From Paramacrobiotus metropolitanus (lineage: Eukaryota; Tardigrada; Eutardigrada; Parachela; Macrobiotidae): a stretch of DNA of 64,000 bases. Every line of letters starts with the position of its first letter. Within the stretch, counting starts at the first letter, position 1. Below, piece after piece: positions 22,545 to 64,000 of the stretch. The notes under the pieces are model-generated. The model was given only the letters and a program-made list of their open reading frames with translations. It did no database searches and was not told the DNA's origin. The DNA is taken from NCBI RefSeq assembly GCF_019649055.1, contig NW_026570225.1, positions 2,108,001 to 2,172,000 of the forward strand, written 5' to 3'. The position numbers and the translations under genes were made by a program.

Positions 22545-23437
22545 TGGCCGCTGATGTATCACATGCTGGTGCTTATCGTCATTTAATCACCAAGTACTAC
22601 AGACAAATGCTTCCTGATGGACACGTTCGACAGAAACATCGTCAGTGAACCTGACTAGACAAGCTGTTTGCTGGCGCGGCAAGTCGGCAACGCAGACGCC
22701 GCATGCGCGCACCTGCACGAGCTACGTGGCCTCACAGTCGAGCACAGAAATCGGTGAACCTCATTTACCAAGGTGCTGCAACATTACCGCGACGTCAAAT
22801 TAAGAATTTTGACAGCTGCATATGAAAATTTTGACGTGTACATGGTTCTGTACAAAGTAAGAACGAGTGGCTAAAACCAGCTCCGGAAATACGTTTCCAT
22901 AAGTAAAGCAACATTTGTCATATTACGGTCTATTGTCATTAACAGACCACATACGTATGCATCGCTGCAAAAAGCACCCACTCGTTGCAAAACACAATAA
23001 TATTTAACTATAATGCGCCATTACCAAGAGGTTTTCGTTCGAACTGCCGGTCAGATTATTGTCGAGCGTTGAGTTCTTCTATACTTCTAGCGATAGTTGT
23101 ATTACTGCAGTCGCACGCATTCAGCGCCATTCGATAAGCCATTCGCTTGGCTTGCATTTATGGCTCTTACAGCCATGCTGCCATAAATCAGCAATTGCCG
23201 CCTGATTGCAATAACAAAATACAGACGAGTTTTCCATATCGAATTTGTCACTTGTGTTCTACTGTACAACAAATGGAATGGCCATCGCTGATAAATGATC
23301 TGGTGCCTTAGACTTCGTTTTTCTGACCTCCGCCCGCAGAATCCTCGATTGAAAAGTTGTCCGAAACCAGAAACTTTCCCTTTCCATGTACGTCTGGAGC
23401 AAGCGTTACTGTCCGAGATCCGATAGCCGGTGGCAAT
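22545..23437 (+). promoter_or_regulatory. dmrt-1 upstream region conserved with dmrt-2
   Basis: This stretch aligns with 51240-52169 upstream of dmrt-2. Shared words include GTATCACATGCTGGTGCTTA, CTGACTAGACAAGCTG, GCAGACGCCGC, TTCGTTCGAACTG and CATAAATCAGCAATTGCC. The duplication boundary is at about 22545 and 51240; further upstream the two flanks differ. It probably contains the promoter and 5' UTR, but no TATA box is obvious. Small frames on both strands here are not preserved between copies. Confidence 0.6.
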
Positions 23438-23489
23438 ATGTTTCCTAATAGGTCTGCCACTACAGATGCACGAGGAACCGTCCGTCCAG
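23438..23489 (+). CDS. dmrt-1 exon 1, short coding leader
   Basis: The exon encodes 17 residues ([17 protein letters not shown]) plus one base, then GTAACA. The aligned dmrt-2 exon 1 has the same ATG-TTT start, the same final phase and a consensus GTAAGC donor. The peptide itself is poorly conserved. It could be partly 5' UTR if translation starts at the exon 2 ATG inside ISDMKKP. Confidence 0.6.
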
Positions 23490-26400
23490 GTAACAGAACA
23501 ACTTTTAATTTGTAACAAGGAATACGAGTACGGCTTGCAGTTAACTGCGTGTTTATTTTCATTTTCTTCGCCTTCGCACCTATACAACTGTAATAAAATA
23601 TTATGCTACAGATCATTTTACTAACAGTAATTCAGAGCAATATTAAAATCTTAGTTGCTGCTTATGCCATGATGCTATGAAATACGTGTGCTATTACTCA
23701 CATGACAAACACTACCAAATATTTGTTCAGTGTATTAAGCATCAAAGGTAAAGATATTTTTTTCGGGGCAAAAAAATATAGTGTACACAAATCATGTTCT
23801 TTAAAAGAGTAAAGAGAATAATTTTTCACCATAATTATCATGTTGCTACTGCGGTCACTACGGGTATACGATTTGCCGAAAATCATTGATGCGATTCACA
23901 GAGTAACATGTTGTTGTGCAACTAGCGCTACATAATTAATATTTTGGTTGCACAGTTTTTATACGTATTTTCTTGCTAGATCTCGCTATTTTGTTGTTAA
24001 AGCTGACTTGTAAATAACATGTATATGTAAGTATCAGTATGTAGCTGGCATCCATCATTACGCTTATGTATGGTGGTACTGATGCAGTCAGAGCGGCCAA
24101 AAGCAGATTTAACATAAAGGTTGATAATCATTTGGTGGCAGCGGGAAGCAGTTCTAGGATTCTTCTAGCACAACTAGCATCATTATTAAGTTATTAAATA
24201 CAAAACATACGATTTTGTATACTAGTAGTATTTGTATTATTTTGTATCTGTTTATACTTCGTATTTGTTTCTGAAAAAGTTGCGTTAAATAAGGACAAAT
24301 AGTTGCGTTAAAACGATTTATATATCTTAAAATTTTATATAATTACGAAGTCTGGTTCTGTATATGGTTGATTCATCAAACTTTTGAGGTTAAAGTTAAA
24401 ATCCACGATGTGCCCTGCATCTATACATTACGAATTCTTGGAAAGCAATAACATACTGTCGAAGAAAGTAACCATAAAAAAACCGCACCGACAACCCAGT
24501 TAATGCGATTTTTGAATAGGTAATTTCTTTGCGACGTTGGAAGGTACTCGACGTTGGAAATATCTACTGTGGCATGCCGAAACAGATATTTCCAACGTCT
24601 AGTAAAATAATACAACAGAAGGCTGAAAAAAATAAAAAAGCACGGCAAAAAGTTGTACAGAGTGAAAAAGGGCCATCGTCCTGACATTTGTGTATTAGTA
24701 AAGTAGTTTCCAGAAAATCACAAAGACTGCACAAAATAGAAAATTATTATTTAGTTAATGCTTGCCTAGAACTGCAAGCGCATATTACAATTTTTTTTTA
24801 AAAGTATAATGCGATACAGCACGGTACGTGCATTTGTTAAACAGAGCTTTTTTGATCCACAAGAAACTGTCAACGGAACGTGACATAATTGTACTTGTAC
24901 TAGTATTAAACGGTATTATCAGATGCCGACGGCTCCTTCGATTTTCAGTATTTACGTATTTGATTTGTGAATGAGCACAAAATGCCGTATATGAGTTTAT
25001 TATCTTATTTAAAACATTACAATCATATAAATTTTAATAATTCACAATCATAAGCCATGCCGCGCTCGGCACCTACGTCCTACATGAGGGGAAAAACACT
25101 GTCGCACAGCACACGCTCCCTGTACTTCTACTTCGTCTTCTTCTTCTACTGGTCTCGTAACTCTCGCCATCTGACTGGAGCATCATATATAACATAATAC
25201 TGTCTAACACAATATAATTTATAATATTGTATAATGTAGATAGATATAATATGTATATAATACCGTATAATGCACAGTGCCGCTTTAATTCACTGTCAAT
25301 AAAAGCATTTCGTTTCATTTTGGATTGCTTATTCCTACTGGTCCGTTCAGCCAAAATCACAACATTCATCCATGACAGCTTTTCTGGGATTTATGGAATT
25401 AGAATTTTCTACAAAAAATCTTGAAATCGGTTTCGTGAAACATACAGGTGGCTTCAACAGCATAAGCCACAAGTTGATCACCATTGTCTGATGTGACGGA
25501 GATGCGTTGAGCTTTTGCTTAAGTGTTTTGATGGATATTTTCTCTTGTTGCAGCCCGTATCCTTGTGCAGGCGCAACCCTGATTGTTCTAGACGTTAAGC
25601 AGATTAAACAGACAACAAAATATTCGTGGCTGCACTTTTGAAAAGTTGTGGCAAGTGCAGCTGGTACAGTAATATGAAATATCGAAATATTGAAATATCG
25701 AAATATTTCGTATTTGATACCGATGGCCACTGCCACTGCTTCGTAAATCTAATCTATAAAACTGTTATAGAATGTGCCTAATTGAGAGGAAGCATATAAG
25801 TTCATGTTTTGTGTCGTGCGAAATAATTTTTGCTTTGAAGAAGAGAACATTTCGGCTTTGCTGTTTAAGAGTAGCATGTATGAACTTCTTTCCCCGAAGA
25901 TATTGCACAAGCTGCGGCATGGGAGGAACATTTGAGTTAATAACTGGTAAGCTCTTTACAACGTGTGTTGCTGAATTTTGCGAAGCACATTGCGCTTTCC
26001 TATTATTTTTACGTGCATTGCTTCGATTCGAAAAACAGTTTGTAGTTTGTAGCACTATACTTGTTGCGCGTGTGCCGTTTATCGTCAGCACATGATTAAC
26101 GCAGCGTATTAAATCGAATTCAAATCTGAATTTCTTTATTAATTTTGTTTATACGTAAACTCGGATAGTTCCACAATATATGGGCAGTGCATTAGAGTAG
26201 TAGTGAAAAAAAAAACAACGCTCGTAAAAAACATAAATTATGGCTATTGAACTCATGAAATGTTCTTCTTGGTTTGCTAACTGTGCTTAAAACTAAGGAA
26301 GGAAATGGCCTTGTTTGACCCTTTTTAAATACTGGACTCAATAAATCCAAACTGGTCGTTGGAAGTGTATAATTATGATACTGCGAGTACCATTTGATTT

Positions 26401-29054
26401 GTGCGATCGCATATCTCGTAGAAATTGACCTTATTTTTGCGCATAGTTTAGATCTTGCACTTTAGGTGATGTTCGTGTTTGCTCAGCCCAACAGCGGTAA
26501 ACCACCGAGCTAATTGGCCCGCACCAGCGGCATCAAGCTAAGATAATAGCATAATATTTTAGGGTAAAGGAGCCATCTGATAAGAACAGTCTAGATAGCA
26601 GCAGCGAGCAGTTATATTAGTATAACCTTTGTATATCGTGCAAGTGATGGTTTGGAACCGAATGTACATGTACATGCATAAAAGCTGCCGGCGCCAAAAT
26701 TTCCGTGCACGGAGAAGTGAAAGAAAAGTCACGACTTAAAGTTCCACAGAGCGGCACAGTATCTGATGTAGACGGTTATATAACCTATGCGCAACAAATT
26801 TTGCGATAATTCGTCCGGTTAACGTTTAATTATTATGTAACGCTGATTAGTACTAGTCATTAACCCATCGACCTTGCAGAAACGTCAACCACGTACTCGC
26901 AGCTGGAACGTGCATCACGCACCCTGTTAGAAACAGGTAATGACCGCACCCTGTTGGAATTCGAACGCCGGCGGTCTGGATTCCAGGATGAGGTTGCTGA
27001 GACAATCAGTGACATGAAAAAGCCAAGCACACTATGTTTGGCTCCCCATCCACTGACTGACCGCGGAGCACGAAAACCCAAATGCGCAAGATGCCGGAAC
27101 CATGATGAAATGGCGTGGCTTAAAGGGCACAAGAAGAGCTGCCCCTATAAGGAATGCACGTGCGACAAGTGTATTCTCATCATGGAACGACAACGCGTGA
27201 TGGCTGCGCAGGTTTGTGAAACAGTATGCAATCGTGAACCGTGTTTTCGTTGTGGTGTATTGCCGCTTAATTATATTTGAAATCTGTGTGAACAAGGTAC
27301 AAGATCGGCCTTTCCGCCCGATAGGAATATAAATTTGTATTATTATATACGCACAATTGAGATTGTATGAGTAACCCGGCCGTGGTACCATTGTACAGGT
27401 AAACTAGCGGCTAGCGGAACAATACGTAATGCGTTAACGCAGTGTTTTGTATATTGTACATTGCCCTTTTATTAAAATTTAATAAGAAGCTATGTCGATC
27501 TACTGCATTAATTCATATTAATATTACTTTTAATAAATGCGGTATCCAGTCTGTACCTACCTTGGCATTTATAAACACCCTATGGCGGTAATTTTGCGGG
27601 AGGTTTTATTTTTCAACGTGTTTGTGGAGGGGGTCATGGTTACATATAACACCAAAACCTTAAGTTATTAGCTCAGCCGCTTTATACGACTCGTAAGAAA
27701 TGTCATTGCCCGTCTTCCCGAGACCTTGTATTAAGTAAGTAATAACAACCGCAATCCTGGTTCCACAATCTGAGTACCCGTACGGCGTACAGTGCATATA
27801 TTCTGTAGGTAGCCATGCAAAATACATAAGTACATCAAAATCAGCCGCTGCTGACCGCGGTGTCCCACTTTTATTTACCTGTAGTTCGCGTAGCAGTACT
27901 AACCGGTGCTCATACAATACAATGTCATATTGTTGGATCCAGATGGATCCAGATGGACGCGTATGTGGATCCAGATATGCTGCACCGCACTACTAAGCAT
28001 CATTAGACGTAAAGCAAGTGATTTCAAGGATTCAACAGGTTCTATTCTAATTACACAGGTTGCTCTGAAGCGTCGTCAAGCCGCCGAAGAAGCTGTTGCG
28101 ATTGGGCTGCGCGCAGCCGTTACAGATGACAATTTGGGTTACATCCCGCCAGGACCAATTTTTCCCAGCCACTCGCGCCGAGGCTCTTCTTCACTGAAAA
28201 GCCTACCTGAATCGGATTTTTGTCAGAGGCCGTTATCTCGACCGCACTCTTCAGTTTCAGTCAACGATAGCGTCTCCAACAGGAACTGCAGAAGTTCCAA
28301 TCCGTCATTGGAAGACGAAGACCTTATAGAGAATGCCACAATCATTAGCTCTCGCATACATGGACAAGAAAGTGTCATAAAACGCGCAAAAACCGAACAG
28401 CGTGCCAGTTGTGGCAGGCGCTTAGAAAGTCGTCCGGAGAAATCAAATCAAGACTCTACGGATATCGAAAACGTAAAAATCTTGAGAAAAGTATTCCCGA
28501 CTCACGCTAACGAAGTGTTATTGGAAGCTTTGAACAAGCATCATGGAAATTTGTTCCAGACATTACAGTACATGTTTTCGGAAAAAGGATGTTCGACGGT
28601 ACCGTATGAGCAAAAACCTCCACACCCGTCAAACGCTACGGCCGTCCACAGTCGATCCGGTTCAGAGAATACAAGCGGCTATCGCGATGCATACAAAATG
28701 CCCACGCTCCATGACACTGCGGTAATGAATTTTGTAAAACCGCCTTGGATGGGTGACTATCACACACACCCATTAATGGATACTCACTGGACCCTGATTC
28801 GTCCGGAAGAGTTAGTCCGGTCTACCCAATTTCCCAGTGCTATGTCACCCCTGTTCACTGCCTATCCGACGGTAACTGGTGGATTCGCCCCGCATATATC
28901 GTACCCGGACTATTCAGCTTTATTTCCTGTGCGTCACCCTTCCGAGAGATTGCTGCGCCCATCCTTTGCAAACAGTAAACTGACGAGCGAGCAGCCGGCA
29001 TACATTTATGGTATTGCGGAAACTATGCACAGCGGAAACATCAAGAGGGAATAG
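23438..29054 (+). CDS. dmrt-1: DM-domain transcription factor with DMA domain, three coding exons
   Basis: The coding exons are 23438-23489, 26880-27211 and 28059-29054, giving about 459 residues. Exon 1 ends CCAG|GTAACA after one base of a codon, and exon 2 begins after CTTGCAG with AA, restoring GAA. Exon 2 ends GCGCAG|GTTTGT in phase 0, and exon 3 follows TTACACAG. The DM domain (about residues 83-133) has CARC, RNH, HKKSC and CTCDKC, the Cys/His set of the two intertwined zinc sites, followed by [20 protein letters not shown] (CUE-like) segment is at about 266-303 ([11 protein letters not shown]...[13 protein letters not shown]). The [11 protein letters not shown] and AVAIGLRAA words resemble nematode DMD-4 and DMRT93B/DMRTA proteins. 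Such proteins are nuclear DNA-binding factors. The first ATG is chosen because the frame has a stop at 23324 and dmrt-2 also starts with an ATG-TTT. Exon 1 rests on phase and on comparison with the paralogue. Confidence 0.9.
23490..26879 (+). other. dmrt-1 intron 1
   Basis: The 3.4-kb intron is AT-rich and contains no recognisable gene. It includes a 16-bp perfect hairpin at 24550-24599 and short AAATATCG repeats near 25675-25710. Its last 320 bases, including AAGAACAGTCTAGATAG near 26580, are recognisable in dmrt-2 near 54985. Several ORFs of about 100 codons occur, but none is shared with the paralogous intron. Confidence 0.7.
24550..24599. repeat. Intronic perfect 16-bp hairpin
   Basis: GACGTTGGAAATATCT (24550-24565) pairs with AGATATTTCCAACGTC (24584-24599) over an 18-nt loop, and a TACT/AGTA extension adds four more pairs after one mismatch. 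It lies in intron 1 of dmrt-1. Confidence 0.6.
26880..27211 (+). CDS. dmrt-1 exon 2, DM domain exon
   Basis: The 332-nt exon starts at the AAACG after CTTGCAG and ends with MAAQ, the usual splice position inside the DM domain of animal DMRT genes. Residues before the domain ([17 protein letters not shown]) match no family I know but are nearly the same in dmrt-2. Reading on past 27211 gives only a short intronic tail that stops at 27280. Confidence 0.95.
28059..29054 (+). CDS. dmrt-1 exon 3, DMA domain and C-terminus
   Basis: The exon opens with [19 protein letters not shown], which completes the C-terminal recognition helix of the DM domain. Next come [10 protein letters not shown], a serine-rich stretch, the DMA segment, and a long conserved tail ([31 protein letters not shown]) ending NIKRE-stop. 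The tail is shared with dmrt-2, so it is probably functional, but I recognise no further domain. The frame is also open upstream to 27906, but that part is intron: a TTACACAG acceptor lies just before VALK. Confidence 0.94.
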   Translation, partial: VALKRRQAAEEAVAIGLRAAVTDDNLGYIPPGPIFPSHSRRGSSSLKSLPESDFCQRPLSRPHSSVSVNDSVSNRNCRSSNPSLEDEDLIENATIISSRIHGQESVIKRAKTEQRASCGRRLESRPEKSNQDSTDIENVKILRKVFPTHANEVLLEALNKHHGNLFQTLQYMFSEKGCSTVPYEQKPPHPSNATAVHSRSGSENTSGYRDAYKMPTLHDTAVMNFVKPPWMGDYHTHPLMDTHWTLIRPEELVRSTQFPSAMSPLFTAYPTVTGGFAPHISYPDYSALFPVRHPSERLLRPSFANSKLTSEQPAYIYGIAETMHSGNIKRE

Positions 29055-29192
29055 ATGCCGCGGTCATCCGTGCAGTCGATTCGAAAACCTGAGTGCGCTT
29101 GCACCTTATCCATGTAACTTCCCACCATTGCATTAATTTATGTAAGTGAATAGTCTTGAGCCGGTATAAGTGGTATCTCATCGCTGATCTGT

Positions 29193-29345
29193 CCAACGAT
29201 TGCGCTTTCCTCGATTGATGACAGTTCCTGATCTGAACCTGCACAATTTTGTGCAGGAAGTTTGCGGTTTTTTTGTTATGAAGGGTGCTACACATTTGTT
29301 TCTGCCTATAATTTTTATTGTTGCCTTGACTATTTGCTGCAATTT
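29193..29345 (+). promoter_or_regulatory. dmrt-1 conserved 3' UTR block with hairpin
   Basis: GATTGCGCTTTCCT, GATGACAGTTCCTGATCTGA and the following hairpin recur at 57675-57830 after dmrt-2. The hairpin CCTGCACAA-TT-TTGTGCAGG has a 9-bp stem. In dmrt-2 the inner TGCACA/TGTGCA pairing survives with a larger loop. Retention of a non-coding block after the stop codon suggests an mRNA-level element. Confidence 0.5.
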
Positions 29346-30450: not shown

Positions 30451-32310
30451 TTAGTCGCATCCCAAGGTCGTCCTTCCCAGTTTGAGGCAGCTTCTATGCT
30501 CAGCCGAGCGCTGGCGCCAATGCGCTTCGCAGCGCGAAGATGGTTCCTGGCACTCGTGTCCTTGAAAGGAAGCCAAGTCGAGCATATACAACGGCATCAC
30601 GATTCTGTCCCGGTTCCGAATCTTATATAGCCACACTGCTTACTTTTGGCGCCATCGTGTTACTGCTGGGGTGATTCCCAGCTGACCGTACAACTTCGGC
30701 GTTACCCGTATCCTGTCCGGTGAGGGTCCGCAAGACTACGTGTTGCCGTTTAATCAGCTTCCCTGCTCGCCCGAAGACTCCGTTGACCAGGCCAACGCAT
30801 AGTAATCTATTACTTATGTGTGGCTGGACAAAAGCGTGGCAAGGGTAACTCGCTGGTGGATGCTGACAGTGTATAATCTTCTGGATGTCCTAGTTCATGT
30901 TTCGCTTCGCTTTCTGGAACTACTTACCCTACATTTTGGATTTTAATCCAGTTCGACTCCAAGGTATAGTACGTCGCATGCTGCTTGAGTGTCAAATGCT
31001 CACCATTTAGAGCCACTACTTCCGCTTCTTTCTGCCACTGCATGCAGAAATCGCGATGCTGCGATGCGGCAATTATGCCGCCATTTAATCGTTCAGTCGC
31101 TCGTACCTTCGTTTTTCCGCTTGCGTGCATGATTATGTCATCCGGCCCGCAAATGCCTCAGTTTCACACCTGTTAATGTCCTTCTGCAAAAGGTCGTTCT
31201 TGTATAAGGTAACAACACCGGGACCGAGTCTTGTCCCCTGCCGTACACCTGATTCAACCGGTAATCAGTGGGACACGCCCTTGCTGGTCTTCGCTCTTTG
31301 CTGGCGGCCAGTTAAGCAGGAAAGAAACCACTTTGAAACAGTGCCTTCAATTCCGGTCTGCCGCAGTTTTGGCATTAAAACCTTTCGTGGTGAGTCAAAT
31401 GCTTTCTTCAGATCGAGGAAGGTTATTGCGGTTATCCTGCCATTATTGCATTACGCGATTCCACGCTTCCGTTACTTTTATTAGTTCGCATGAGTGTTCC
31501 TGGCGAAATCCAGACTGGCTACTGGAAGGCACACCGTTGGCGTTCAGGCAGTCCATCAGTTGGATCTGCACACAGCGTTCAACCACCTTTGACAGATTGC
31601 ATAACAAGGAAATTGGCCTAAAATCATCTGCGCTCGCTGCGCTTGGAACTGTTGCAAGCGGGCACACATCGGGCTACCGATCACTTCGGCCGTTTTCATT
31701 TCGGCCGCGTTCATTTCGGCCAAAGTTTTTCGGCCGCCATTCACCTCGGCCGTTATTCACTTCGGCCGTCATTCAGTTCGGCCGCCGATCACTTCGGCCA
31801 CAGTACATTTCGGCCGACGCTCTTCATTTTAGTTTGATTCACAAGAAAATGTTACCTGCGATATAAGTTTATCGGTTACTTAAAACCATTGAATCATAAA
31901 AGTGGCCGCGTTCATAATTATCATTTTGCACGCACAATTTGTTTTAGCAGTTCTTGTTTAAAAGAAACCTAAGAAACCTAAGAATCCTAAGAATCCTAAG
32001 AATCCTAAGAATCCTAAGAATCCTAAAAATCCTAAGAAACCTAAGAAACCTAAGAAACTTAAGAAAACGTCGGAAACTCAAGACACCTATGATGGCCGAA
32101 ATGTCCCGTGGCCGAAATGAGCGCTGGCCGAATTGAGTGTTAGCCGAAGTGAGCCACGGCCGAAATGAACGTTGGTTGAAGTGAACCTGTACGGCCGAAA
32201 TGTAACACGGCCGAAGTGATCGGACGCGCTTCCAGTATCTGTCAGTTCCAGCCTTCCAGGTGAATGATTATCCGCGTACGTAAGTTCGAATTTCCGGATC
32301 CGCGATATAC
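30451..32310 (-). pseudogene. CR1/L2-like LINE remnant, broken and interrupted
   Basis: On the minus strand the order is FTWKAGTDRYWKR (about 32230-32280), a 547-bp insertion, then CPLATVPSAASADDFRPISL, LCNLSKVVE and SQSGFRQEHS (31450-31667), FLDLKKAFDS (about 31390-31420), GVRQGTRLGP (about 31220), ADDIIMHASGKTKV (about 31120) and a putative C-terminal piece at 30451-30636. These are the usual reverse transcriptase blocks of jockey/CR1/L2-type LINEs. Several frameshifts and stops separate them. Confidence 0.75.
31677..32223. mobile_element. CGGCC/CCTAAG TIR element inserted in the LINE
   Basis: The ends are CCGATCACTTCGGCC and GGCCGAAGTGATCGG, a perfect 15-bp inverted repeat. Inside are arrays of CATTTCGGCC and CACTTCGGCC on the left and their complements on the right. 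The CCTAAGAA minisatellite is at 31965-32075. It interrupts a reverse transcriptase frame. No clear target duplication is seen. Confidence 0.75.
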
Positions 32311-39114: not shown

Positions 39115-39780
39115 TGCCGGTGAGACAGGGGGGAAGGGATTTTTGCCGGTCAGAGAGAAGTACAGGGATTTTCGCCAGCCAGAAAGAAGGACGGAGATTT
39201 TCGCCGGCCAGATAGAAGTACAGGAATTTTCGCCGGTCACATAGAAGTACTGGGATTTTCGCCGGTCAGATCGAAGTACAGGAATTTACGCCGGTCAGAT
39301 AGAAATTCAGAGATTTTCGCCGGTCAGATAGAAGCACAGAGATTTTCGCCGGTTAGATATAAGTACTGGGATTTTCGCCGGTCAGATAGAAGGACAGGGA
39401 TTTTCGCAGGTCAGATAAAAATGCAGGAGTTTCGCCGGTCAGATAAAAGTAGAGGGATTTTCACCGGTTAGAACAGAGGGGTAGGGATTTACACCGGTCA
39501 GATAGAAGTACAGGGATTTTCGCCGGTCAGATAGAAGTACTGAGATTTTCGCCGGTCAGATAGAAGTACAGGGATTTTCACCGGTTAGAACAGAGGGGTA
39601 GGGATTTTCGCCGGTCAGATAGAAGTACAGGGATTTTCGCCGGTCAAATAGAAGTACAGGGATTTTCCCCGGTCAGATAGAAGCACAGGGATTTTCGCCG
39701 GTCAAATAGAAGTACAGGGATTTTCACCGGAAAGAACAGAGGTGTAGTGTGGTCAGGGAGAAGAGGAGGGATTTGGCCGA
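39115..39780. repeat. 29-bp minisatellite, about 23 units
   Basis: The consensus is GGGATTTTCGCCGGTCAGAT plus AGAAGTACA. A variant unit (CACCGGTTAGAACAGAGGGG) recurs at about units 13, 17 and 22, a sign of block duplication. There are no unique spacers, so this is not a CRISPR array. Confidence 0.9.
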
Positions 39781-45895: not shown

Positions 45896-48800
45896 ATGTT
45901 TTCTTTTCAACATAATATTCCATTGTGGATTGCCGACGGTAGTGGTGTTGCTTCAAAATGGGCACAGGGCTTTGCTGCGCGGAATGCGATGGACGTCAAG
46001 CAGGTAGGCATCCCGCAGAAGCGGTATCCATCTTTACAACTGCGTAAGTACAAACACACTGATTCGCAAATGGTATCACGCTGAAAGAATAATAGATATG
46101 ATATAAAGTAGCCAAATACGTACAACTGATCTGCGATACTGCCATATTAAACGTATGGTTCTGTGAACCAGTGCAACCACACAATTGAAGTAAACACAAG
46201 TATAACGGAACATTTAAAAGTTTCCTAATTTTGAGAGAAAAACTTGTATGTGCTTTCCTTTCTTCGATGTCTGCGGTGCACTATCTCAAAGCATGTTATA
46301 TCTATATTCTCTGGAAACTGTTGATCTGTTTTAATAATAATCTCCTCGATAATATTTAGCTGTTTTTGTTACCGACCAGACATAGAAGTCCCGTTTGCCG
46401 GGTTGTCTGCTTCTGATACGTGAATGAATGAATGAATGAATGAACTAGCTGTACGCGGACGTTTTGCTCGACAGAGCTTCTGTTCCTTATTAATTTCTGC
46501 AATTTACTTGATTATCATATAGCTATATCAACCATAATCTAACTGCACTGGCCGCTGTAGACAGTGCAGTTAGTTTAAGTTTATAAATGCAACAGTAAAA
46601 TATTTACTCTAACGAAGGATGCTTTACCTACACCGGTACTTACACGAATAGCATCTCCAAACTTCATGCACGGCGCAACCACTGGCATTTGCTAAAAACT
46701 ATGGGACTTGTAGGTTTCTGCATTACAACTGCAGCATAAAAGTTTTGCATTGCAGATAATTAGATTAACAGTGGCCAGTTGGTTTAGTCTGACCCCGGTA
46801 GCTTTGCCCAGTACAACATAAAAATGGTTTTTTATTAATCGCGCTGCAGAAATTTCGCAAAGGCCTATTCATTAAAATGTGAACAACCGTGACCTGCACT
46901 GAACTGCGCACTTGTTTACATTGCGATCAGGCTTGGTCTCGAAGTGAGACCATTATGTAACGCTACTGCGCGTTACTGCCTATCGAAACATAACACTTAC
47001 TGGTTCTAGGACGCGCTCAAATGCCTTATTGAAATCGTACAGACAGACATTTGCTGACGAGACGCTTTTGAGTTGCTTGCCCAGACGAAAGGTTGCAAAA
47101 GTCGTCTACCGCGCTAATCACGAGCGAGTCCATCGAAAACACTAGCAGCAATCGATATACGAGTACCTATGTCCCTGATTAGGCAGCTTCAGATTGTGAA
47201 ATACTGATCTTTGCATCGGCAAGGTTATCGCAGCAGATAACAATACCGCATCCGGCTCTGCATTGCAGTTAAATTGCTACTTCGAAATCTTTCACAAACC
47301 ACTGGGAAGATTCATCATAACAATGCAACAGAATATCGTACAATAAATTCTGATCGCGGAGTGAACTGAGTTTAATTGCACACGAAAATCCGTACTTTTT
47401 TTGTGTTTCAGGAACCTGAAGCGTGCAACTGGTACTACCGGCAGGACGCAGACAAGGTTCAATGTGGCACATGCTCCAAATTGTATGCCAGTAAGAAAAG
47501 CCTAAAGATACACAATCGCATCCACACTGGCTATAAACCATATGCGTAAGACAATAATAATACAAGTGTGCTTTCAGTCTATGTAATTGAAATATTAACA
47601 TATGCGAAATATAGAATAAAAATCGCGTCATTTCCGCACTATTTATCACAGTTGCCCAATATGTCCGAAACGTTTCACGCAAACGAACGTCCTGAAAGCA
47701 CACATCAATTACCACACCGGACGTCGCGACTGGTTATGCAAAATCTGTGGCAAGGCCTTCACTCAGTCGGCACATTTGCGAACTCACGAAAAGACCCATT
47801 CGAATCGCAAGGATTACCAATGCCCGTATTGCCAACAGAATTTTAGCTGCAAAGGTCAGTTCTCGTTTTACTGAGTAGAAGTTTTGTTGTGACTTTATTA
47901 CTGCCGATTGATTACTTTGACATATTACAAAAATTCTCCGTTTGCATATCAAATACTTCGGTACCATTTTTTATTGATGGCCTTATAGCCACAAATCCTA
48001 CAACAAGTCTACAGATTTCTATCATTTATTTGCATAGCCAGGGCACTTCGCTACAATTTATCGCTGTTATTTGTCACAACGCGTATGCTAGCACTGATAA
48101 CTGTGCTTAATACGTGCTCGCACACTACTCTAGATCTAGAGGTTACGCAATTCAAACTTGGTTGCATTAATTTTAGCGTTATATTAGACAATTTGGGAAA
48201 ATTCCGACTGTTACAGCAGTACCATTGACCAGCGTGCATGTGGCAAGGGCCGTGCTATAGTGAACGAATACTGAAATTCAAATTTTAGATAACTTTTTTA
48301 TATCGTTTGCAACTGCTTTTCGTCGCGCTTCCGTAGTAAATCGTAAATCACATAACGCGCATTTACGGTCGTTCATTTTATATTCAGCCGGTAGTAACCG
48401 TCGAAAAGGGCACTGAGGCTGAGAGACAGGATGTGAACGGATTCGAACTATTAGTTTATAGTTTCAAGTCGGCTAATCTGACACCTACTATAAATATTAA
48501 CCCGGAAGCAACGGGCCTGGCGCATTATTTTCCCAGCTACCGATGTTTCTGCTCGTTTACTTCCTGGCACTTGCATTACCTTTCGACTTTCGAGCCATTA
48601 CGACAGTAATCTTTAGCGGTTTACAATTCCTTAAAACCATTATGTTCTTGTGGGGGGCGGTTGCGACTACTTATTTCGGCGTAGGACGCAAACCCCATAT
48701 GACGTCAGCGGTCAGGCGAGTTATCATTCATCCGTCTAGCCTAATCTGCGGAATCCAACCAGTTTCACACATGCATTGTTTTGCAGGTGTACGCGACCGG

Positions 48801-49557
48801 CACATCCGTCAGCATACGGGAGAAAAGCCTTACAAATGCTTGCTCTGTGAGAAACGATTCACGCGCGGTGAGTCACTGAAATTTCACGAGAACGCCCATC
48901 AGGGCATCCGACCGTACAGCTGCCCACACGAACACTGCCGGAAGACGTTCACCAAACAGTCCAGCCTGAAGCGCCACATCCGCTCCGCACACAGCGGACT
49001 GGCATCCAGCTTCCGCGTCCGTTCGGCCAAATTCAGCTCACCACTCGCTCACGTATCCGGCTGTTCGGCTATCTTCCCGACAACAGTGGCTTCGCCCAGC
49101 GCCAACAGTGACTGTGTATCAACAACCGGCTCATCCACGGCGGGGCCCGGACAGTCCATTTGTCATTAAGATGGAGGAACTCGACGAGGACGACACCGAA
49201 GACCAGCTGCTGCAGAACATGATCCAAAGTCTGAGTGCCGCTGAACTGGATCGCCTGGATCAGTATTTGGGTTTAAGCAGCACTGATGCCTCGCTGGAGT
49301 CATTTTTGAATGGAAGTGGTGGAGAAGTGTTTGATAGTTTTGTAAAAATGGAAGTGGATGCTAACGATGTAGCTCGTCCAGGCACTGCTTACCCAACACA
49401 GAATTACAACGGGCCTGCTTACAGCGGGCATTATGGGATGAATATGTGGGATCCGGTGGACTGGGAGATGCCGGAGCTCAAAGTTTTTGAAGCACCTGGA
49501 CGATTTCTGCCGCGGTCCGAATGGGAGCGTGGCAACAGATTCCACCGTATCGAATGA
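45896..49557 (+). CDS. ZNF-1: six-finger C2H2 zinc-finger protein with acidic tail, four coding exons
   Basis: The exons are 45896-46003, 47412-47545, 47652-47854 and 48787 onward. Donors are CAG|GTAGGC, TGC|GTAAGA and AAAG|GTCAGT; acceptors are TTTCAG, TATCACAG and TTTTGCAG. All phases join. Six fingers run from about residue 54 to 217: C54/C57/H70/H74, C82/C85/H98/H102, C110/C113/H126/H130, C138/C141/H154/H158, C166/C169/H182/H186 and C194/C199/H212/H217. Two linkers are good HTGxKPY matches. Finger 4 is split by an intron. After the fingers the frame runs to a stop at 49169. A different frame, open from 48970 to 49557, encodes a plausible tail (FVIKMEELDEDD, SAAELDRLDQYLGL, WDPVDWEMPEL). 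A net +1 shift is needed to join them. It is probably a nuclear DNA-binding regulator; I do not recognise an orthologue. Confidence 0.82.
46004..47411 (+). other. ZNF-1 intron 1 with (TGAA)6 tract
   Basis: The 1.4-kb intron contains a perfect (TGAA)6 at 46421-46444. About 60 GC-richer bases precede it (CAGACATAGAAGTCCCG, GGTTGTCTGCTTCTGATACG). That arrangement is typical of the 3' tail of a truncated LINE. No coding sequence is seen. Confidence 0.5.
47855..48786 (+). other. ZNF-1 intron 3
   Basis: The 932-bp intron interrupts finger 4. It has a GTCAGT donor and a TTTTGCAG acceptor. No repeats or genes were recognised. Confidence 0.7.
48787..49169 (+). CDS. ZNF-1 exon 4, fingers 4-6
   Basis: The exon continues finger 4 (GVRDRHIRQH), then TGEKPYKC finger 5 and finger 6 (CPHEHC...HIRSAH). 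The open frame starts upstream at 48543, but that part is intron: TTTTGCAG precedes 48787, and the codon is completed by the final G of exon 3. Confidence 0.85.
49108..49557 (+). CDS. ZNF-1 C-terminal acidic tail in a shifted frame
   Basis: The frame is rich in Asp, Glu and Leu (EELDEDDTEDQLLQNMIQ), followed by a Ser/Gly/Tyr-rich segment and WERGNRFHRIE-stop. It lies on the same exon as the fingers with no space for a normal intron. It looks like an activation-type tail by composition only. It is either the real C-terminus reached after a frameshift or indel, or the relic of one. Confidence 0.65.
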   Translation: MTVYQQPAHPRRGPDSPFVIKMEELDEDDTEDQLLQNMIQSLSAAELDRLDQYLGLSSTDASLESFLNGSGGEVFDSFVKMEVDANDVARPGTAYPTQNYNGPAYSGHYGMNMWDPVDWEMPELKVFEAPGRFLPRSEWERGNRFHRIE

Positions 49558-49559
49558 GC

Positions 49560-51239
49560 GGAAGCTCGGTGTGCGGTAACTGCCCTGCCTGTCATACAGT
49601 TTGCCGGGCACAGTCAGCTCCTAAATTCCTAATACGCAGCGGTTGCATCGAAAAAATTCAACTCTTGTCGTACGATTGTCCCACAAACTTCTCGCTTCGA
49701 ATGAATCGATTCATATACTTACGGTATGCTGTAAAACGAGTGCATGGCTATTCTGTAGTCTGTACGCTACCCGTAGATCTTAGGCTGAATTTTATGTATG
49801 AGGAGGATAGTTGGAAAAGCTCAGAAGGTTAAGAAGCTACACGGCTTCTTTTGGATTGTTGGACTGTGATATAAATGGATCCTCAATGTTTTGTACTTAA
49901 GCTTCTACGAGTAGTTTGTTTCGTATCAGCAGTTCAGAACTTTGTCATTTGTTCTTATTGTTGGCATTTTGCATTCCTGTTAGCAATGGAATTGTTGCAT
50001 GTTGTGTCATTTTATTGATGATTTAGTTGTAAAATGTAGTTTTTGATATATATATTTTTTTCAAGCTTCTATACTGCCATGGTTTTTTTGCCAGAGTGTC
50101 ACCCAAATGGCATTCGAAATCGTTATTGTATGTGCTTGGTGCGAGAATCACTGTCAAATTTTGCACAATATTTATGCGACTGTAAAACGTCCGTACTTTC
50201 AAAAGCGAAAGCTATCCGCATTTCGCAACCGACAGGCTCCAGCGCAAAAACCGGGAAGAGTATGTACGAAATTTTAAGCACCACTATATCTGAGTGAAAA
50301 CTAAGAAATCATGGCATTTTTGGTTGTACTATTAGTAATGCTTGCATGCGGGTTAATGCAGATGACCGTTTGAACCAATCAAGTTTTTTCGGTGTAGTTT
50401 TTGAAGTGGGTCGACATTTGTTTTGCCGGTCACCGGCATCGTATTTGTAGTATGCAATTGTTTATAATTACATGTAGTATATGATATTTTTACTTCATTT
50501 GATTATTACCACGGCAATAACCAGACACCACTGCTCCAAAATTAAGTTAGGAAGTAGTACCAAAACAACCAATACCGTCATTAACGTTATCATACGGTTT
50601 AACACGTGGCATAATGCCCAAAACTGCCGCCTCGTTACCACGAACAATGGCAGTGCCGAAGCTCTGTTTCGAAAACCAACTCGAACGCACTTCACCGGTC
50701 CTTTCAAAATTTTTACAACCTGGAAACTTGAAAAGTTCCCTCGTAAGTTAGCTCAGTATTCCAAGGGTTTCGCATACAACAGGAAGAAGAAATATGGCGG
50801 TGTAACAAACGGTAGTGGTTTGGTTTATGAAATTCAGCGATACAATATGAACCCGCGTGCTGCTGAACGGTTCACATAAGAAGACGCCCCCATACAGGAG
50901 GACGTAGCATCCCACACCACATACTGGCCGTCTCGCACAAGAGCCAGGATAACACCGTTTGGGCCTTTTCCGCTTTTGGGATTGTACAGTATTAGTATTG
51001 TACTTAAGTCTTGCATCTGGGACAGTAGATAAAAAGTTTATCTAACGGCTGCATGCACGGCAAGTCGCCATGGGTTTTGGCTGCGTGCACGAATTATTAC
51101 TTTTACCATTTGAATATTTTTGAGTTTTGCTTTCTAATTTAACATTTCATAATCTTTTTCATACTATTCAGCAAGGATTACTTAATTTTTCAGCCGCTTA
51201 AGACATATGTTTTGGGTAAACAATCGAGATATCGCTAAT
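49560..51239. other. ZNF-1 3' flank with LINE scrap
   Basis: Downstream of the ZNF-1 tail I see only UTR-like sequence to about 50300. A LINE scrap is at 50880-50990 on the minus strand. The 132-codon plus frame 50481-50879 has no recognised domain. Confidence 0.45.
50880..50990 (-). pseudogene. LINE endonuclease scrap
   Basis: The minus-strand reading GPNGVILALVRDGQYVVWDA followed by T matches the RPDG...WDVT core of the LINE at 4250-4818, with the Asp of RPDG changed to Asn. It is the fourth remnant of that family in the window. Confidence 0.55.
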
Positions 51240-52169
51240 ATTTGTTTTTGGTCGCTAATGTATCACATGCTGGTGCTTATCGTCCTTTAATCGTCAAATA
51301 CCTGAGACAAATGTTTCCTGACGAACCCTTTCTATAAAAATTGTCGACGATGAACCTGACTAGACAAGCTGCTTGTTGGCGCGACAACGCAGACGCCGCG
51401 TGTGCACAGTCACACCTGCATTGAGCTACGTGGCCACAGCGCCGATACCGGTGAACCTCGATTACAGAGACGCAGCAATAATATTGCCGCGATATTTGAT
51501 TAGGAATTCTGACAACTGCATACGAAATTTTTACGACTAGTACTTTTATCTAGTCTGATACAGTATAGGAGTGAATACCTACGAACCTGCTCCGGAAATG
51601 TGTTTTCATGAGTAAAGCAACATTTGTCGTTCTACTGTTCACTATCTATTGTCAGCTGTCACCAACACAACGCCTATATATGCATCGCAGCAAAACCCCT
51701 TCACTCGTTGCAAAACATGATAATATTTAACTGTATCCTCCTTTACCAATACGTTTTCCGTTTTCGTTCGAACTGTCTGTCGGTCAGATTACTGTCAAGT
51801 GTTGGGCTTCTGGTGACAGTTGCATTATTGCAGTCACACGCATTCATCGTGCTAAGCCATTCGCTTGGCTAGCTTGGCATTAATTTATGACTTTTACTGC
51901 CTTGCTGCCATAAATCAGCAATTGCCACCTGATTGCAATATCAAAACACAAAACGCGTTTCCCATAACGAATTTGTTTGTCGTTTGTTTGCTCAAACGCA
52001 TCGCCACTACCGAAAAATATTTGTAGTAAAAAAATACAAATTTTGGTTGCTACCGCCCGCTCGGCTTCCTGTTCAGTACGCTCCGAAATTCCGAATACCG
52101 AAAGCTTCCGTTCTTCGACTGGAGCCGGCGTTACTACTCACTGTTCAAAATCGAAGAGCCGTCGGCATT
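51240..52169 (+). promoter_or_regulatory. dmrt-2 upstream conserved region
   Basis: This is the counterpart of 22545-23437. The best-kept parts are near 51250-51440 and 51750-51960. It probably holds the promoter and 5' UTR; no core-promoter motif stands out. Confidence 0.6.
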
Positions 52170-52224
52170 ATGTTTCTTAGCGGATCGGGTAGCATAGAAG
52201 CACACAGAACCGCTTATAATTCAG
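52170..52224 (+). CDS. dmrt-2 exon 1, short coding leader
   Basis: The exon has 18 codons plus one base before GTAAGC, in phase with exon 2. The frame is open upstream to 51933, but no ATG occurs there, so this ATG, which aligns with that of dmrt-1, is the likely start. Confidence 0.6.
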
Positions 52225-55200: not shown

Positions 55201-57531
55201 ATTGTTGTTGCGGTTGACCTCCATCTTATGTAATGCTAATTATTAAATGTTTTTAAGTACTAGTCGTGATAGCACTTAACCCATCGCGATCTTGCAGAAA
55301 CGCACCTAGAGTGTGTGTCACGAACCCTGTTAGAAACCAGTAATGACCGCACCCTGTCGGAATTCGAACGCCGGCGGTCTGGATTCCAGGATGAGGCTGC
55401 TGAGACAATCAGTGACATGAAAAAGCCAAGCACACTATGTTTGTCTCCCCATCCACTGACTGACCACGGAGCACGGAAACCCAAATGCGCAAGATGCCGC
55501 AACCACGACGAAATAGCGTGGCTGAAGGGGCACAAGAAGAGCTGCCCCTATAAGGAATGCACGTGTGACAAGTGCATCCTCATCATGGAGCGACAGCGCG
55601 TGATGGCTGCACAAGTATTTGACAATAAAGGAAATCTTGAAATTATTATCAAGAGCCTTCGCCAACAGGCTACAATTAAGAAATTAAGGCAGTTGTAGAA
55701 TCTGATCATAATAGTGAGTATTGAGTTCATGAGTATACGTAGCGACCGCAAACATGTTCATTGTCTGTATGGTTAGGTTAGCTTGCACATATATATTGTA
55801 CGCTCTGCTTGTGCGAACACGGATTTGTTCTTGCCATGCAGACAGCTTCGCGATGGCTACTTCCAAATCTTTCCAATAATCCAGAAAACACCTGGAAAAA
55901 ACTGGTTGGCGTGCACTCGTACGCATAATTCAACGATAGCCGCTGTATAAGGCACCAGTAAAAATTTGGTTTTAATCTGAACGATATCACATTGTATGCA
56001 AATTATTATTACTGATTGTAAATGCATGAATTTTAACAATGATTTGGTTTGCCCGCACAAAACTTACACCAATCCCCCAGGCAACTGAACCCCGAAAGTC
56101 AGCAGTACTTTGGAATTGCTAAAACGGCTGGTTCTTTCGAAATGCGTCAACTACATACAGGTGGCTAGCACCTGGAGGCTGTAGGCTAGCTGTATCGTGT
56201 ACAGTGTGAGTTCCCGACGTTTAATACAGCCAACTGCAAGTTGAGCCAACATGCAGTAGCAATCATCTTATTTGGGAACTACTACTAGTAGTATTAAAGT
56301 AAGTTTTCGTAAGTGTAAAAAAGTGTTTCACGCTGGCGTTGTTCGCAATCGTAGAATTTAATTTGCATTGTACAAATTTTTTATGGGCATTTTGGCTGGC
56401 CACCTTGGTCGGTATAGCAATAAAACCATGCCGAATACGGCGGAACTACCTTTGTCCGTCACGTTTTGCAGGTGATTTTTACCGATTTATCAGGTTGTAT
56501 TTCAATGTAGGTTGCACTGAAGCGTCGCCAGTCCACCGAAGAAGCTGTAGCGATTGGGCTGCGCGCAGCCGTAACGGATGATAATTTGGGTTACATCCCA
56601 CCAGGGCCAATTTTTCCCAGCCATTCCCGCCGGGCCTCTTCGTCACTGGAGAGCCTACCGGAATCAGAGTTATGCCACACTCCATTATCTCGACGACCGC
56701 ACTCATCGGTTTCAATCCACAGCAGCGCGGCACCTGATGAAAATGTTCAAAAGTTCCATTTCGTCACCAGTAAACGAAGACTTCGCACGGAACGATGCAA
56801 CCATGGCCTCTCGACTGCCTGGACAGCAAAGTGTCATAAAACACGCAAAGATTGACCGGCGTACAGCTTACGACAGTCATTTAGAAAATCGCCCGGGAAA
56901 TGGAAATCAGGAATCTAGAACAGATGAAAACGTGCAAATACTTAAGCAAATATTTCCAAATTACAACAACGACCATTTACTGGACGCTTACAACAGACAT
57001 CATGGAAATTTGTTCAAAACGCTGCAGTACATGTTTTCCAAGCGGGGAAGTACGACGGTACCGTATGAGCAAAAAACTCCGCATCCGTCAAGCGCTGCTG
57101 ACGCCAACAGTCAATCCGACTCTGACAAAACCAGTGGCTATCGCGATGTTTACAAAATCCCCACGCTTCATGACACCACGGGAATGAACCTTGTAAAGCC
57201 GGCTTGGATGGGTGACTATCACACAAACCCAATGGTGAATACTCATTGGGCCTTGGTTCGCCCTGAAGAGTTAGTTCGATCAACCCAGTTTTCCACCGTT
57301 ATGTCATCCCTGTTCGCTGTCTATCCAACGGTCGCCAGCGGATTTGCTATGCACTTACCGTATCCGCATGTACCTTTCTCGCACCCGGCTTTGTTCCCTG
57401 GACGTAACCCATCTGAGAGATTGCTGTGTCCATCTATAGCAAACCGAAACATGAGAAACGAACAGCCGGGGTACACTTTTTCCATTGTCGACAACCCGTA
57501 CAGTGTCAGTAGGAACATCAAGCGGGAATAA
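52170..57531 (+). CDS. dmrt-2: paralogous DM-domain gene with a frameshift in exon 3
   Basis: The exons are 52170-52224, 55298-55614 and 56511-57531. Exon 1 encodes [18 protein letters not shown] and ends TTCAG|GTAAGC. Exon 2 follows CTTGCAG and ends CACAA|GTATTT. Exon 3 follows TTCAATGTAG. Phases are identical to dmrt-1. The DM domain keeps every zinc ligand and differs by one residue (HDEIAW for HDEMAW). In exon 3 the first 80 or so codons read in one frame, and the rest, including the DMA-like segment and the tail ending NIKRE, in another. The switch at about 56725-56752 is a net 4-base gain relative to dmrt-1. If the frameshift is real, the product stops at 56855 without DMA. The downstream frame is still open and similar to dmrt-1, so the shift is recent, bypassed, or a sequence error. 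Confidence 0.85.
52225..55297 (+). other. dmrt-2 intron 1
   Basis: The 3.1-kb intron has no recognised gene. It contains a 48-base stretch at about 53413-53462 that resembles one arm of the hairpin at 58347-58426. A few frames of 77-152 codons occur (for example 53859-54143) but none resembles a known protein or is kept in dmrt-1. The 3' end near 54985-55297 matches the end of the dmrt-1 intron. Confidence 0.65.
55298..55614 (+). CDS. dmrt-2 exon 2, DM domain exon
   Basis: The 317-nt exon encodes [13 protein letters not shown], the shared pre-DM segment and the DM domain. It is 15 nt shorter than the dmrt-1 exon near its 5' end. Over the DM part nearly all differences from dmrt-1 are synonymous. 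The donor is CAA|GTATTT, against CAG|GTTTGT in dmrt-1. Confidence 0.93.
56511..57531 (+). CDS. dmrt-2 exon 3, frame-shifted
   Basis: The exon starts [29 protein letters not shown] and [16 protein letters not shown]. After SAAPDENV the homologous sequence moves to another frame, giving [13 protein letters not shown], then [11 protein letters not shown]...[13 protein letters not shown] (DMA-like) and the shared tail. No GT-AG pair spans the switch at a plausible intron length. Confidence 0.85.
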
Positions 57532-57830: not shown

Positions 57831-57873
57831 GAACGTACCTTTAATAAGTATCGTAATACGAGTACAAACTGAG

Positions 57874-62200: not shown

Positions 62201-62399
62201 CGTTTAGGCACTGCAAAAGTGTCATAAGCAGTTTCGGACTGTTGGCATTTGAACAGATTTACGAAACCAGATAAAACTGGATTGTTCCCGAAAATCCGTT
62301 ATCGATGGCACACTAATCTGGCCTCCAGGAGAATAGTCACAGCAACAAAACGCTGTTACTCTATGCAAAATTGCTAAATCATTAGAGCTCATAGATTGA
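59290..62399. other. Block B spacer, second part
   Basis: This is AT-rich DNA with a short tandem CCTAAAACACAATCAG duplication at 60025-60060. No gene was recognised. Frames of 60-95 codons are not shared with block A. Confidence 0.4.
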
Positions 62400-63019
62400 T
62401 TCTTGTTGTAAAATTTGCACCGTAGGCACTGTTGCGGTTCGAGGCCTTCTTTCTGCATGCAGGAGTTTCGGGTGAAACCGGCAGCATTCTTCTGACTGTG
62501 GTGTCTGCGAAAAGTTCAGCCGTGTTGGCATTTGATGTGCATGTGTTCTTGAAATTTCCCGGTATGACGCTGGATCAGACGAAAAAACCAACACAAAACG
62601 CCCGCCTAAACATACACGGTAGTACGACGAAATGCACTAGGTAGCTGGTGCTGCAACGATTCCAGCAGTAGACACTTTGGGTTTTATGTTTTTCCGCGAG
62701 GTTCAAACGGTTACGGTGTATAACCAGGCCATTTACTTTCCGGCTAGCCATCATTTCGAAGTGTACAAACGCTTGGCTGCTGGGCCAGCTGCTGACGGAG
62801 GTCTACGCGTATGTGCAGCGAACGTTTTCGGCTTCGACGAACGATAACTCGATAGCATCATAGCTGCAATAAAACTCTTGCAGTAAGCAGAAAACGTTTT
62901 CGTACTTGCATACGTGTTTATAAAAAGGTCCAATGAGCTGAGATTGCCATAGGCTGATAGACAGCAAACATCTGAATATCGAGGTACTTACTTTGATTAA
63001 TTTTTCGTTTCCAACCCCT
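62400..63019 (+). promoter_or_regulatory. ZNF-2 upstream block conserved in ZNF-1
   Basis: This is the counterpart of 45050-45679, with the same order of shared words and moderate divergence. In ZNF-1 one shared word runs into a donor-like CCG|GTAAGG that is changed here to CCGGCTAGCC. Confidence 0.5.
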
Positions 63020-63060
63020 GTAGTACATATATATATTTATTCTCTGCTCGCCAGACCTTA
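63020..63060 (+). promoter_or_regulatory. ZNF-2 putative core promoter (TATA)
   Basis: ACATATATATATTT is followed by TCGCCAGACC about 25 bases downstream, aligning with 45680-45720. It lies about 200 bases before the ZNF-2 ATG. Confidence 0.5.
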
Positions 63061-63254
63061 CTTAAATTTTGCTAGTCAACACAAACAGATCCACTTCCAC
63101 ATGATACATTTTCCTGAAGGCTCACTTTGTCCGTTCATATATGATTGTGTAGCAGCAATTTCACTGAGCACTCTCTCGATACGTACGCCGCCCTGTAAAC
63201 TCCGTTTATGTTTATTAGCATTACGCTGCATGCAGGACAATTACGATGTGTGCC

Positions 63255-63371
63255 ATGTTTTCTGGACAACAAAATCCGCTGCAGGTCGCAGATGACAACC
63301 GTGTGTTACTGGGTAGCTGGGCAAACAAAACGCAGGTCTTTGTACCGATAAGTGCAGCGGATGTTAAGCAG
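63255..63371 (+). CDS. ZNF-2 first coding exon (gene continues past the window)
   Basis: This 39-codon exon (MFSGQQNPLQVADDNRVLLG...ADVKQ) ends CAG|GTAAGC in phase 0. It matches ZNF-1 exon 1 (MFSFQHNIPLWIADGSG...MDVKQ) in start, end and phase. The zinc-finger exons should follow 3' of position 64000. Only intron sequence is visible from 63372. Confidence 0.65.
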
Positions 63372-64000
63372 GTAAGCAAACGGAGAAATACTCTAAAATT
63401 TGCTTAACACGAAATCTCAAGGGCAGAAAGTAACGTGTATGGGGCGATAACCAAATCTGCTGTAAAGTTAACCCGAAAACTTCTGACATTTATTTAGCTT
63501 TTCTGTAATTTCCTGGTTGCTCTTAGCAGATGCTTCTGATCAATTCAGTTCTCTTCCGTTAAAATTTATTATTAATACAGACGGCTGCTTCCCATATTAG
63601 AAAGCGGCGTTAAAACAAGGAAGTAATGGATACAGAGGTTTATCTCTTTGTAGCACGTAGTACGTGTGCATGCAGAACTTTTTGGTATCTAGAACTTTTT
63701 GGTATCTTTTTGGTATCTTTGGTATCTTTGGTATCTAGGCTTTTTGGAACTTTTTGGTTTGGTAGTACGTGTTCGAAAAATGACATGTTAAGATACGGTT
63801 TCCGGTTTCCACGATATCCTGTTGATATTCACGGTACGGAAAGTTGGTAAAAACATTAGGTAGTGTAGTCAACCGCGCTTATAATGCACAAACAAAAACT
63901 TTCTCTACGTGCAAACAAAATTAATCAGACATTAAATAAAATACTTTTCGAGTGGCACCTTAGAACCCGGTTTATTCCTTTGGACCACGCACAGTGACGC
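63372..64000 (+). other. ZNF-2 intron 1 (partial)
   Basis: Begins with the donor GTAAGC. A tandem TTTTTGGTATCT repeat occupies about 63678-63765. The window ends before the next exon. Confidence 0.5.

Follow-up and report, generated by a model that had tools for sequence, protein, structure and literature searches.

How did two genes of the DMRT family and two genes for six-finger C2H2 zinc-finger proteins come to alternate along one strand of a tardigrade contig? The question is raised by a stretch of 64,000 nucleotides of Paramacrobiotus metropolitanus (contig NW_026570225.1, positions 2,108,001 to 2,172,000; C5:2108001-2172000 in our coordinates), hereafter the window, which contains no N. 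We consider it very likely that a single head-to-tail duplication of a DMRT-ZNF block produced both gene pairs, followed by conversion of ZNF exons and by divergence of the DMRT proteins outside the DM domain. The original prediction, drawn from the window by itself, had proposed a two-gene cassette duplicated as a unit, which is supported by the gene order, by the similar divergence of both genes and by the finger exons of ZNF-2, present past 64 kb. The DMRT half of this locus is already published; added here are the C2H2 gene linked to it, the family of that gene, with nine or more members, and a probable conversion within ZNF exons. Self-BLAST was run on the window and the next 10 kb of the same contig, and extended coordinates continue the numbering past 64,000 (L001 being the DNA past the window end, so that L001 885 is extended 64885). 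Genome-wide searches covered 533 contigs (169.8 Mb), and every gene model was derived from sequence alone.

Two collinear units

Self-comparison of this DNA recovered two collinear units on the same strand, unit 1 at 22541-49980 and unit 2 at 51245-67447, separated by a gap of 1.3 kb, the second unit extending 3.4 kb beyond the window end. Each of them has a three-exon DMRT gene and, after it, a C2H2 gene with four exons and six fingers. Seven plus-strand blocks are repeated in the same order, with E-values of 6e-24 to 0, far beyond chance: three belong to the DMRT genes (22541-23248/51245-51976, 26898-27219/55301-55622 and 28014-29329/56468-57819) and four to the ZNF genes (45081-45671/62467-63010, 47045-47864/64534-65357, 48772-49490/66306-67023 and 49798-49980/67268-67447). 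A multi-gene block is thus present as a collinear direct repeat with similar divergence, as tandem segmental duplication is defined. The order and strand of the two pairs, which had been claimed to be the same, are confirmed by these blocks, and self-BLAST together with the gene models bears out the common exon count, phases, upstream DNA and 3' block claimed for the DMRT genes, with a weak match for the first exon of DMRT-1. The upstream DNA and phase-0 first exon described as common to ZNF-1 and ZNF-2 were likewise found, with an aligned TATATATA stretch about 200-230 bp before each ATG. As assembled, DMRT-2 and ZNF-1 contain one frame break each. The features of the DMRT genes are as follows, with divergence between copies given as the Kimura two-parameter distance (K2P).

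22541-23248, plus strand: DMRT-1 upstream block, common with DMRT-2 (K2P 0.22)
23438-23489, plus strand: candidate for the DMRT-1 first coding exon, with 17 codons and 1 nucleotide, donor GTAACA; the match is weak, at 75% over 40 columns with an E of 0.036
26880-27211, plus strand: DMRT-1 exon A, leader and DM domain; by position, presumably PmDmrt3090
28059-29054, plus strand: DMRT-1 exon B, from VALKRR... up to the stop codon; CUE/DMA-like helices lie at 28431-28616
29055-29329, plus strand: DMRT-1 3' block, common with DMRT-2 (K2P 0.36)
51245-51976, plus strand: DMRT-2 upstream block (self-BLAST)
52170-52224, plus strand: DMRT-2 first coding exon, 18 codons and 1 nucleotide, donor GTAAGC; the length fits the published 463 amino acids
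55298-55614, plus strand: DMRT-2 exon A, DM domain; by position and length, presumably PmDmrt3093
56511-57531, plus strand: DMRT-2 exon B, whose frame is broken in the assembly between 56732 and 56749

The DMRT genes

The two DMRT genes are almost certainly the published PmDmrt3090 and PmDmrt3093, because they too are two close DMRT genes, here on contig C5, with a frame break in one and a length of 463 amino acids. The available text of PMC11191345 describes five DMRT genes in P. metropolitanus, of which two are near neighbours on scaffold 5; its Figure 2E legend gives 1.96-2.37 Mb of that scaffold, an interval containing the window, and the curated PARRI_0003093 has 463 amino acids, with a misassembly (one-base insertion) noted. 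Our DMRT-2 model also comes to 18+1+105+339 = 463 amino acids, one base being discounted for the frame break, and DMRT-1 comes to 459 if the weakly matching exon at 23438-23489 is used. Exon phases are alike in both copies (1, then 0). The genome-wide DM search gave 5 matches among 16 scored candidates, two of them at this locus. PF00751 was above its cut-off in both copies, with a full-length DM match in copy 1, and the best match of DMRT-1 in the PDB was DMRT1 (4yj0, E 1e-21). In a tree without other animals, L003 is the closest to either copy of the genome's three other DMRT genes (67-69% vs 52-60%). L003 is presumably the Dmrt93B gene, with which the published pair was placed (PMC11191345).

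Within the DM domain, 47 of the 48 residues are identical between the copies, with a synonymous divergence (dS) of 0.74 and a nonsynonymous divergence (dN) of 0.009, while two pieces of exon B gave dS of 0.58 and 0.83 and dN of 0.10 and 0.25; these values indicate that both copies are old and constrained. According to PMC11191345, in the part available, the copies are extremely similar over amino acids 30-180 and their introns are different.

The C-terminal half was compared with known domains. A Pfam scan of DMRT-1 at E 1e-3 returned the DM domain alone, without a match to the DMA model. A model predicted from a two-sequence input for 28431-28616 (62 amino acids) has three helices and a predicted local distance difference test (pLDDT) score of 74.6; its first Foldseek matches were CUE and UBA domains, at a weak best E of 0.38, and VIA gave top Z values of 8.4 and 8.3, a range common for small helical models. 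The doublesex (dsx) dimerisation domain 1zv1 came at rank 15 among CUE/UBA folds, a weak match (Z 6.1, root-mean-square deviation 5.6, 53 aligned), and when the DMA-like piece was compared by sequence with the PDB, a penicillin-binding protein came out best (E 0.2). The published account, as far as its available text goes, found no dsx dimerisation domain in the five DMRT genes (PMC11191345), and our predicted helical model agrees with the modelling published there and adds little. Both DMRT proteins end in NIKRE at their extreme C-terminus (29035-29054 and 57510-57531), a sumoylation-like motif. Motifs of this kind follow the pattern psi-K-x-E.

The ZNF genes

The second gene of each unit was modelled as listed below.

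45081-45671, plus strand: ZNF-1 upstream block, common with ZNF-2 (K2P 0.31)
45896-46003, plus strand: ZNF-1 exon 1, with ATG start and phase 0 end
47412-47545, plus strand: ZNF-1 exon 2, finger 1
47652-47854, plus strand: ZNF-1 exon 3, two whole fingers (2 and 3) and half of finger 4, with a 152-bp run identical to ZNF-2
48787-49557, plus strand: ZNF-1 exon 4, remainder of finger 4, then fingers 5-6 and the tail
48772-49490, plus strand: tract 99.6% identical to ZNF-2 (66306-67023, extended), probably a gene conversion tract
49798-49980, plus strand: ZNF-1 3' block, common with ZNF-2 (K2P 0.24)
62467-63010, plus strand: ZNF-2 upstream block
63255-63371, plus strand: ZNF-2 exon 1, phase 0
64885-65018, 65145-65347 and 66321-67138 (L001 885-1018, 1145-1347 and 2321-3138), plus strand: ZNF-2 exons 2-4, past the window

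In both copies six C2H2 fingers with linkers extend across exons 2-4 (64936-66526 in ZNF-2, extended coordinates), finger 4 being split by intron 3 and whole only after splicing; PF00096 and PF13465 were matched in ZNF-2. As assembled, a G run near 49142 in ZNF-1 exon 4 has one G too many, so that the frame stops at 49169, after finger 6, while the frame of ZNF-2 continues through an acidic tail. This break is a probable assembly error, because a one-base insertion was reported as a misassembly in PARRI_0003093. The contact residues are the same in ZNF-1 and ZNF-2 in all six fingers (1-3 computed, 4-6 read by eye), and the two proteins would be expected to bind the same DNA as each other. ZNF-1 may correspond to gene number 3091 or 3092, both of which lie between the DMRT genes. 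The ZNF tail also includes the sumoylation-like motifs VIKMEE and FVKMEV (49150-49500; L001 2680-3030).

Probable conversion within ZNF exons

The noncoding DNA of the two units is considerably diverged, with K2P of 0.22 upstream and 0.36 on the 3' side for the DMRT genes, and of 0.31 upstream, 0.34 in the exon-2 flank, 0.34 in intron 2 and 0.24 on the 3' side for the ZNF genes. ZNF intron 1 still aligns (score 125 vs at most 32 in 100 shuffles), its end containing the common exon-2 flank. Intron 3 is nearly unalignable, with one short match (score 47 vs at most 33 in 200 shuffles) and a K2P of 0.57 at its end in a forced alignment. Against this background, the tract at 48772-49490 differs from ZNF-2 by 2 substitutions in 718 aligned bases and 1 indel, and its flanks are copy-specific on both sides. 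Exon 2 differs at 24 of 134 positions (about 18%) and exon 3 at 6 of 203, including the 152-bp identical run. The same jump is seen at synonymous sites, for which the totals are rounded Nei-Gojobori counts: 16 differences in 25.7 sites in exon 2 and 5 in 39.7 in exon 3, or some 32 changes in 48 sites over exons 1-2 (exon 1 being short and poorly aligned) against 5 in about 191 over exons 3-4. Exon 4 showed no difference in the 118 codons before and the 110 after the indel, in windows that stop short of the two 3' substitutions; beyond the indel a frame was picked for convenience, which is immaterial given that no differences occur there. The longest identical runs measured 335 and 370 columns, and a run of 370 was reached in 4 of 200,000 random placements of the 33 differences over the 1056 exon columns.

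Near-identity that includes synonymous sites, within older and diverged duplicates, is the pattern of ectopic gene conversion, here read from the assembly only. The near-identity, limited to parts of ZNF exons 3 and 4 between diverged introns, is thus probably gene conversion, with at least two events suggested, their extent limited by homology. A single conversion tract over exons 3-4, or a spliced copy as template, was considered and rejected: two events are simpler because intron 3 was kept and is strongly diverged, and exon 3 contains two differences near its end. Among the three relatives on contig C126 (see below), no such exon-limited jump was seen at BLAST resolution, the blocks being 73-93% identical.

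It is improbable, in our opinion, that the identical exon 4 is an artefact of assembly or polishing instead of conversion. Short reads cannot separate identical exons, and the one-base insertion in the G run of ZNF-1 exon 4, similar to the misassembly reported for PARRI_0003093, would fit such an origin; polishing, however, fixes scattered bases and would hardly turn the divergence of about 18% seen in exon 2 into 0.3% over 719 bp. The copy-specific flanks of exon 4 and the separate 152-bp identical run in exon 3 also speak for conversion.

The ZNF family in the genome

The genome-wide protein search returned 116 matching stretches, many of them low-identity fingers, and at least nine genes have the same exon 2-3 layout: ZNF-1 and ZNF-2, three relatives on the same contig, near 2189k and, on the opposite strand, near 2211k and 2218k, one near 1580k, and three on C126. 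Five of them lie within 65 kb on this contig, and a tenth member is likely on C333. Exon 4 was not found for the 2189k copy, and a weak one was found for the 2218k copy. The DMRT-ZNF pair put forward in the original prediction is real and yet not the whole cluster, with three further ZNF relatives within 50 kb past the window. Over exons 2-3, ZNF-1 and ZNF-2 share 98% identity and are closer to each other than to any other of the nine; the next are at 74-78%, and the deeper branches of the tree are poorly supported (0.29-0.39 at two nodes). The three C126 genes (L013, L014 and L015) have the same exon layout and the tail motif SPVVIK(V/L)EELDE...QLERLEEYL, and are 92-95% mutually identical over exons 2-3.

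Contact residues (-1, 2, 3 and 6) read QAHT in finger 3 of all nine members and SKSI in finger 1 of seven; finger 2 reads QNVA in five of the nine and QNIA, QNIT or QNAA in the others. As far as these residues tell, the family would have largely kept its DNA specificity. Such constancy is unlike the fast-changing C2H2 families, since the contact residues of fingers 1-3 hardly vary here. Fast change of specificity is a feature of KRAB zinc-finger genes. The mammalian clustered C2H2 families, in the parts of PMC2443715 and PMC2604467 available, also form local poly-finger clusters that grow by tandem duplication.

Origin of the two units

From a mechanistic point of view, a block with a DMRT gene derived from Dmrt93B and a six-finger C2H2 gene of the clustered family would have been duplicated once, head to tail, in the P. 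metropolitanus lineage. The inter-gene DNA of the two units would afterwards have become different and the DMRT proteins would have diverged outside the DM domain, while parts of ZNF exons 3 and 4 would have been made alike again by at least two conversions, confined to exons since the intervening intron was too different. One joint duplication is the simplest explanation because the noncoding divergence of the DMRT and ZNF genes is similar and the order is D-Z-D-Z (D for DMRT, Z for ZNF).

Several points weigh against this reading. The DMRT-to-ZNF spacers (15.8 kb in unit 1 vs 4.6 kb in unit 2) have no common stretch detected by self-BLAST. The ZNF family has also multiplied where DMRT was not found: no DMRT exon lies beside the other ZNF relatives at E 0.01, either in 64-114 kb of the extended coordinates or in L012-L015. 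The DMRT leader has a dS of 0.13, with 5 of 42 synonymous sites changed, fewer than in the DM domain (13 of 28; Fisher p 0.002), which may reflect a third conversion patch or regulatory constraint. The near-identity of exon 4 could partly stem from assembly, and the published assembly went through haplotype merging and short-read polishing (PMC8277472, available part). Finally, no single long read spans both DMRT genes, as stated in the available text of PMC11191345, so that single reads do not establish the 28 kb between them.

Separate duplication of the DMRT and ZNF genes, with a self-spreading ZNF family merely flanking both DMRT copies, seems unlikely to us. A family of at least nine members, five within 65 kb here and three on C126, would lend itself to such spread, and the differing spacer lengths, with no common DNA detected, agree with it. 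Separate tandem duplications of neighbours would, however, give D-D-Z-Z by themselves and not the D-Z-D-Z order seen on one strand, and both genes show similar divergence. ZNF-1 and ZNF-2 are moreover nearest relatives, a closeness inflated by the probable conversion in exon 3.

That the units are alleles which the assembler set side by side by mistake is very improbable. The nearly identical ZNF exon 4, the missing joining read and assembly options that kept heterozygous variants before merging with HaploMerger2 (PMC8277472, available part) favour it. Against it stand the large noncoding divergence (K2P 0.22-0.36, with many indels, and a ZNF intron 3 that is nearly unalignable, though introns 1 and 2 keep common stretches) and the available text of PMC11191345, according to which each DMRT gene is covered by long reads, reassembly yielded two genes once more, and coverage of the male-biased bins equals the genome average.

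Relation to published work and possible sexual role

With the single-duplication reading retained, the published account and ours agree on five DM genes, two neighbouring DMRT genes that are probably of Dmrt93B type, a frame break, 463 amino acids and no DMA by sequence model (scanned here in DMRT-1). They differ in the ZNF partner and the probable conversion, which are added here and are absent from the main text of PMC11191345, where 'zinc', 'C2H2', 'duplicat' and 'gene conversion' each occur 0 times. In the open-licence literature that paper was the only publication found for P. metropolitanus and DMRT, and none was found on a tardigrade DMRT-ZNF pair, among titles and abstract openings; PMC12941274, in its available part, concerns C4-type fingers. 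In an arthropod, the centipede Scolopendra mutilans, a member of the DMRT family, Dsx2, has likewise been duplicated locally in tandem (PMC12562212); it belongs to another DMRT class, and its abstract opening has no linked zinc-finger partner.

The sexual role suggested for the DMRT pair in the original prediction agrees with the published male bias of both copies. The available text of PMC11191345 presents PmDmrt3090 and PmDmrt3093 as Dmrt93B paralogs restricted to Macrobiotidae. Like PmDmrt93B, they are expressed more highly in males, and the region where they lie, which H. exemplaris lacks, shows an enrichment of male-biased genes (PMC11191345). A sex determiner was not shown there: coverage gave no sign of male-specific DNA at the locus, no sex-specific DNA was detected in P. 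metropolitanus, no sex-specific splice forms were reported, and tardigrade genomes are described as lacking doublesex (PMC11191345). In several other Macrobiotidae that study did not detect two copies, which may be due to short-read assembly (PMC11191345).

The DNA bound by the two DMRT proteins would be largely the same, and both would serve as transcription factors in the male, with overlapping targets, their C-terminal halves setting the differences between them. The core motif of DM domains is ACAWTGT. Sites of this type were not enriched in the window (12 vs a mean of 14.9 in shuffles). A joint role of DMRT and ZNF, which this count does not support, can be hypothesised. One form of it, which we regard as a long shot, is a two-gene module of male development copied whole, whose ZNF fingers would be kept alike by conversion and selection while the DMRT tails specialise, the C2H2 cluster lying in the same young, Macrobiotidae-specific, male-biased region. 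For the way in which sex is set in P. metropolitanus, the linked ZNF gene offers a concrete second candidate. The proposed relative order of events, joint duplication and then ZNF exon conversion, can be used for comparison across Macrobiotidae.

Other features

A Pfam scan at E 0.01 of 10 of the 137 open reading frames of the window gave no further genes, though some could have escaped it. Scanning the window with Rfam and for tRNAs gave 0 matches, the tRNA scan being run in its bacterial setting. SL1 RNA, Col_cuticle_N and Chitin_bind_4, looked for as marks of a nematode or insect origin, also gave 0 matches, but control genomes gave none either, so that this is no evidence of absence. An open reading frame at 13983-14804 contains a reverse transcriptase domain (PF00078, E 4e-9) and is a probable retroelement remnant. 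The spacer of unit 1 includes a 29-bp tandem unit in 20.5 copies (39135-39730), with a 115-amino-acid open frame through part of it. In L010 4110-4716, a 178-bp stretch recurs at 100% identity 429 bp onward. A dispersed repeat, made of 16-bp units of the GGCCGAAGTGA type and AAGAAACCT arrays, occurs at 15224-15366, 16448-16718, 31672-31822, 31962-32228 and L008 8471-8642, and is up to 89.5% alike between two places.

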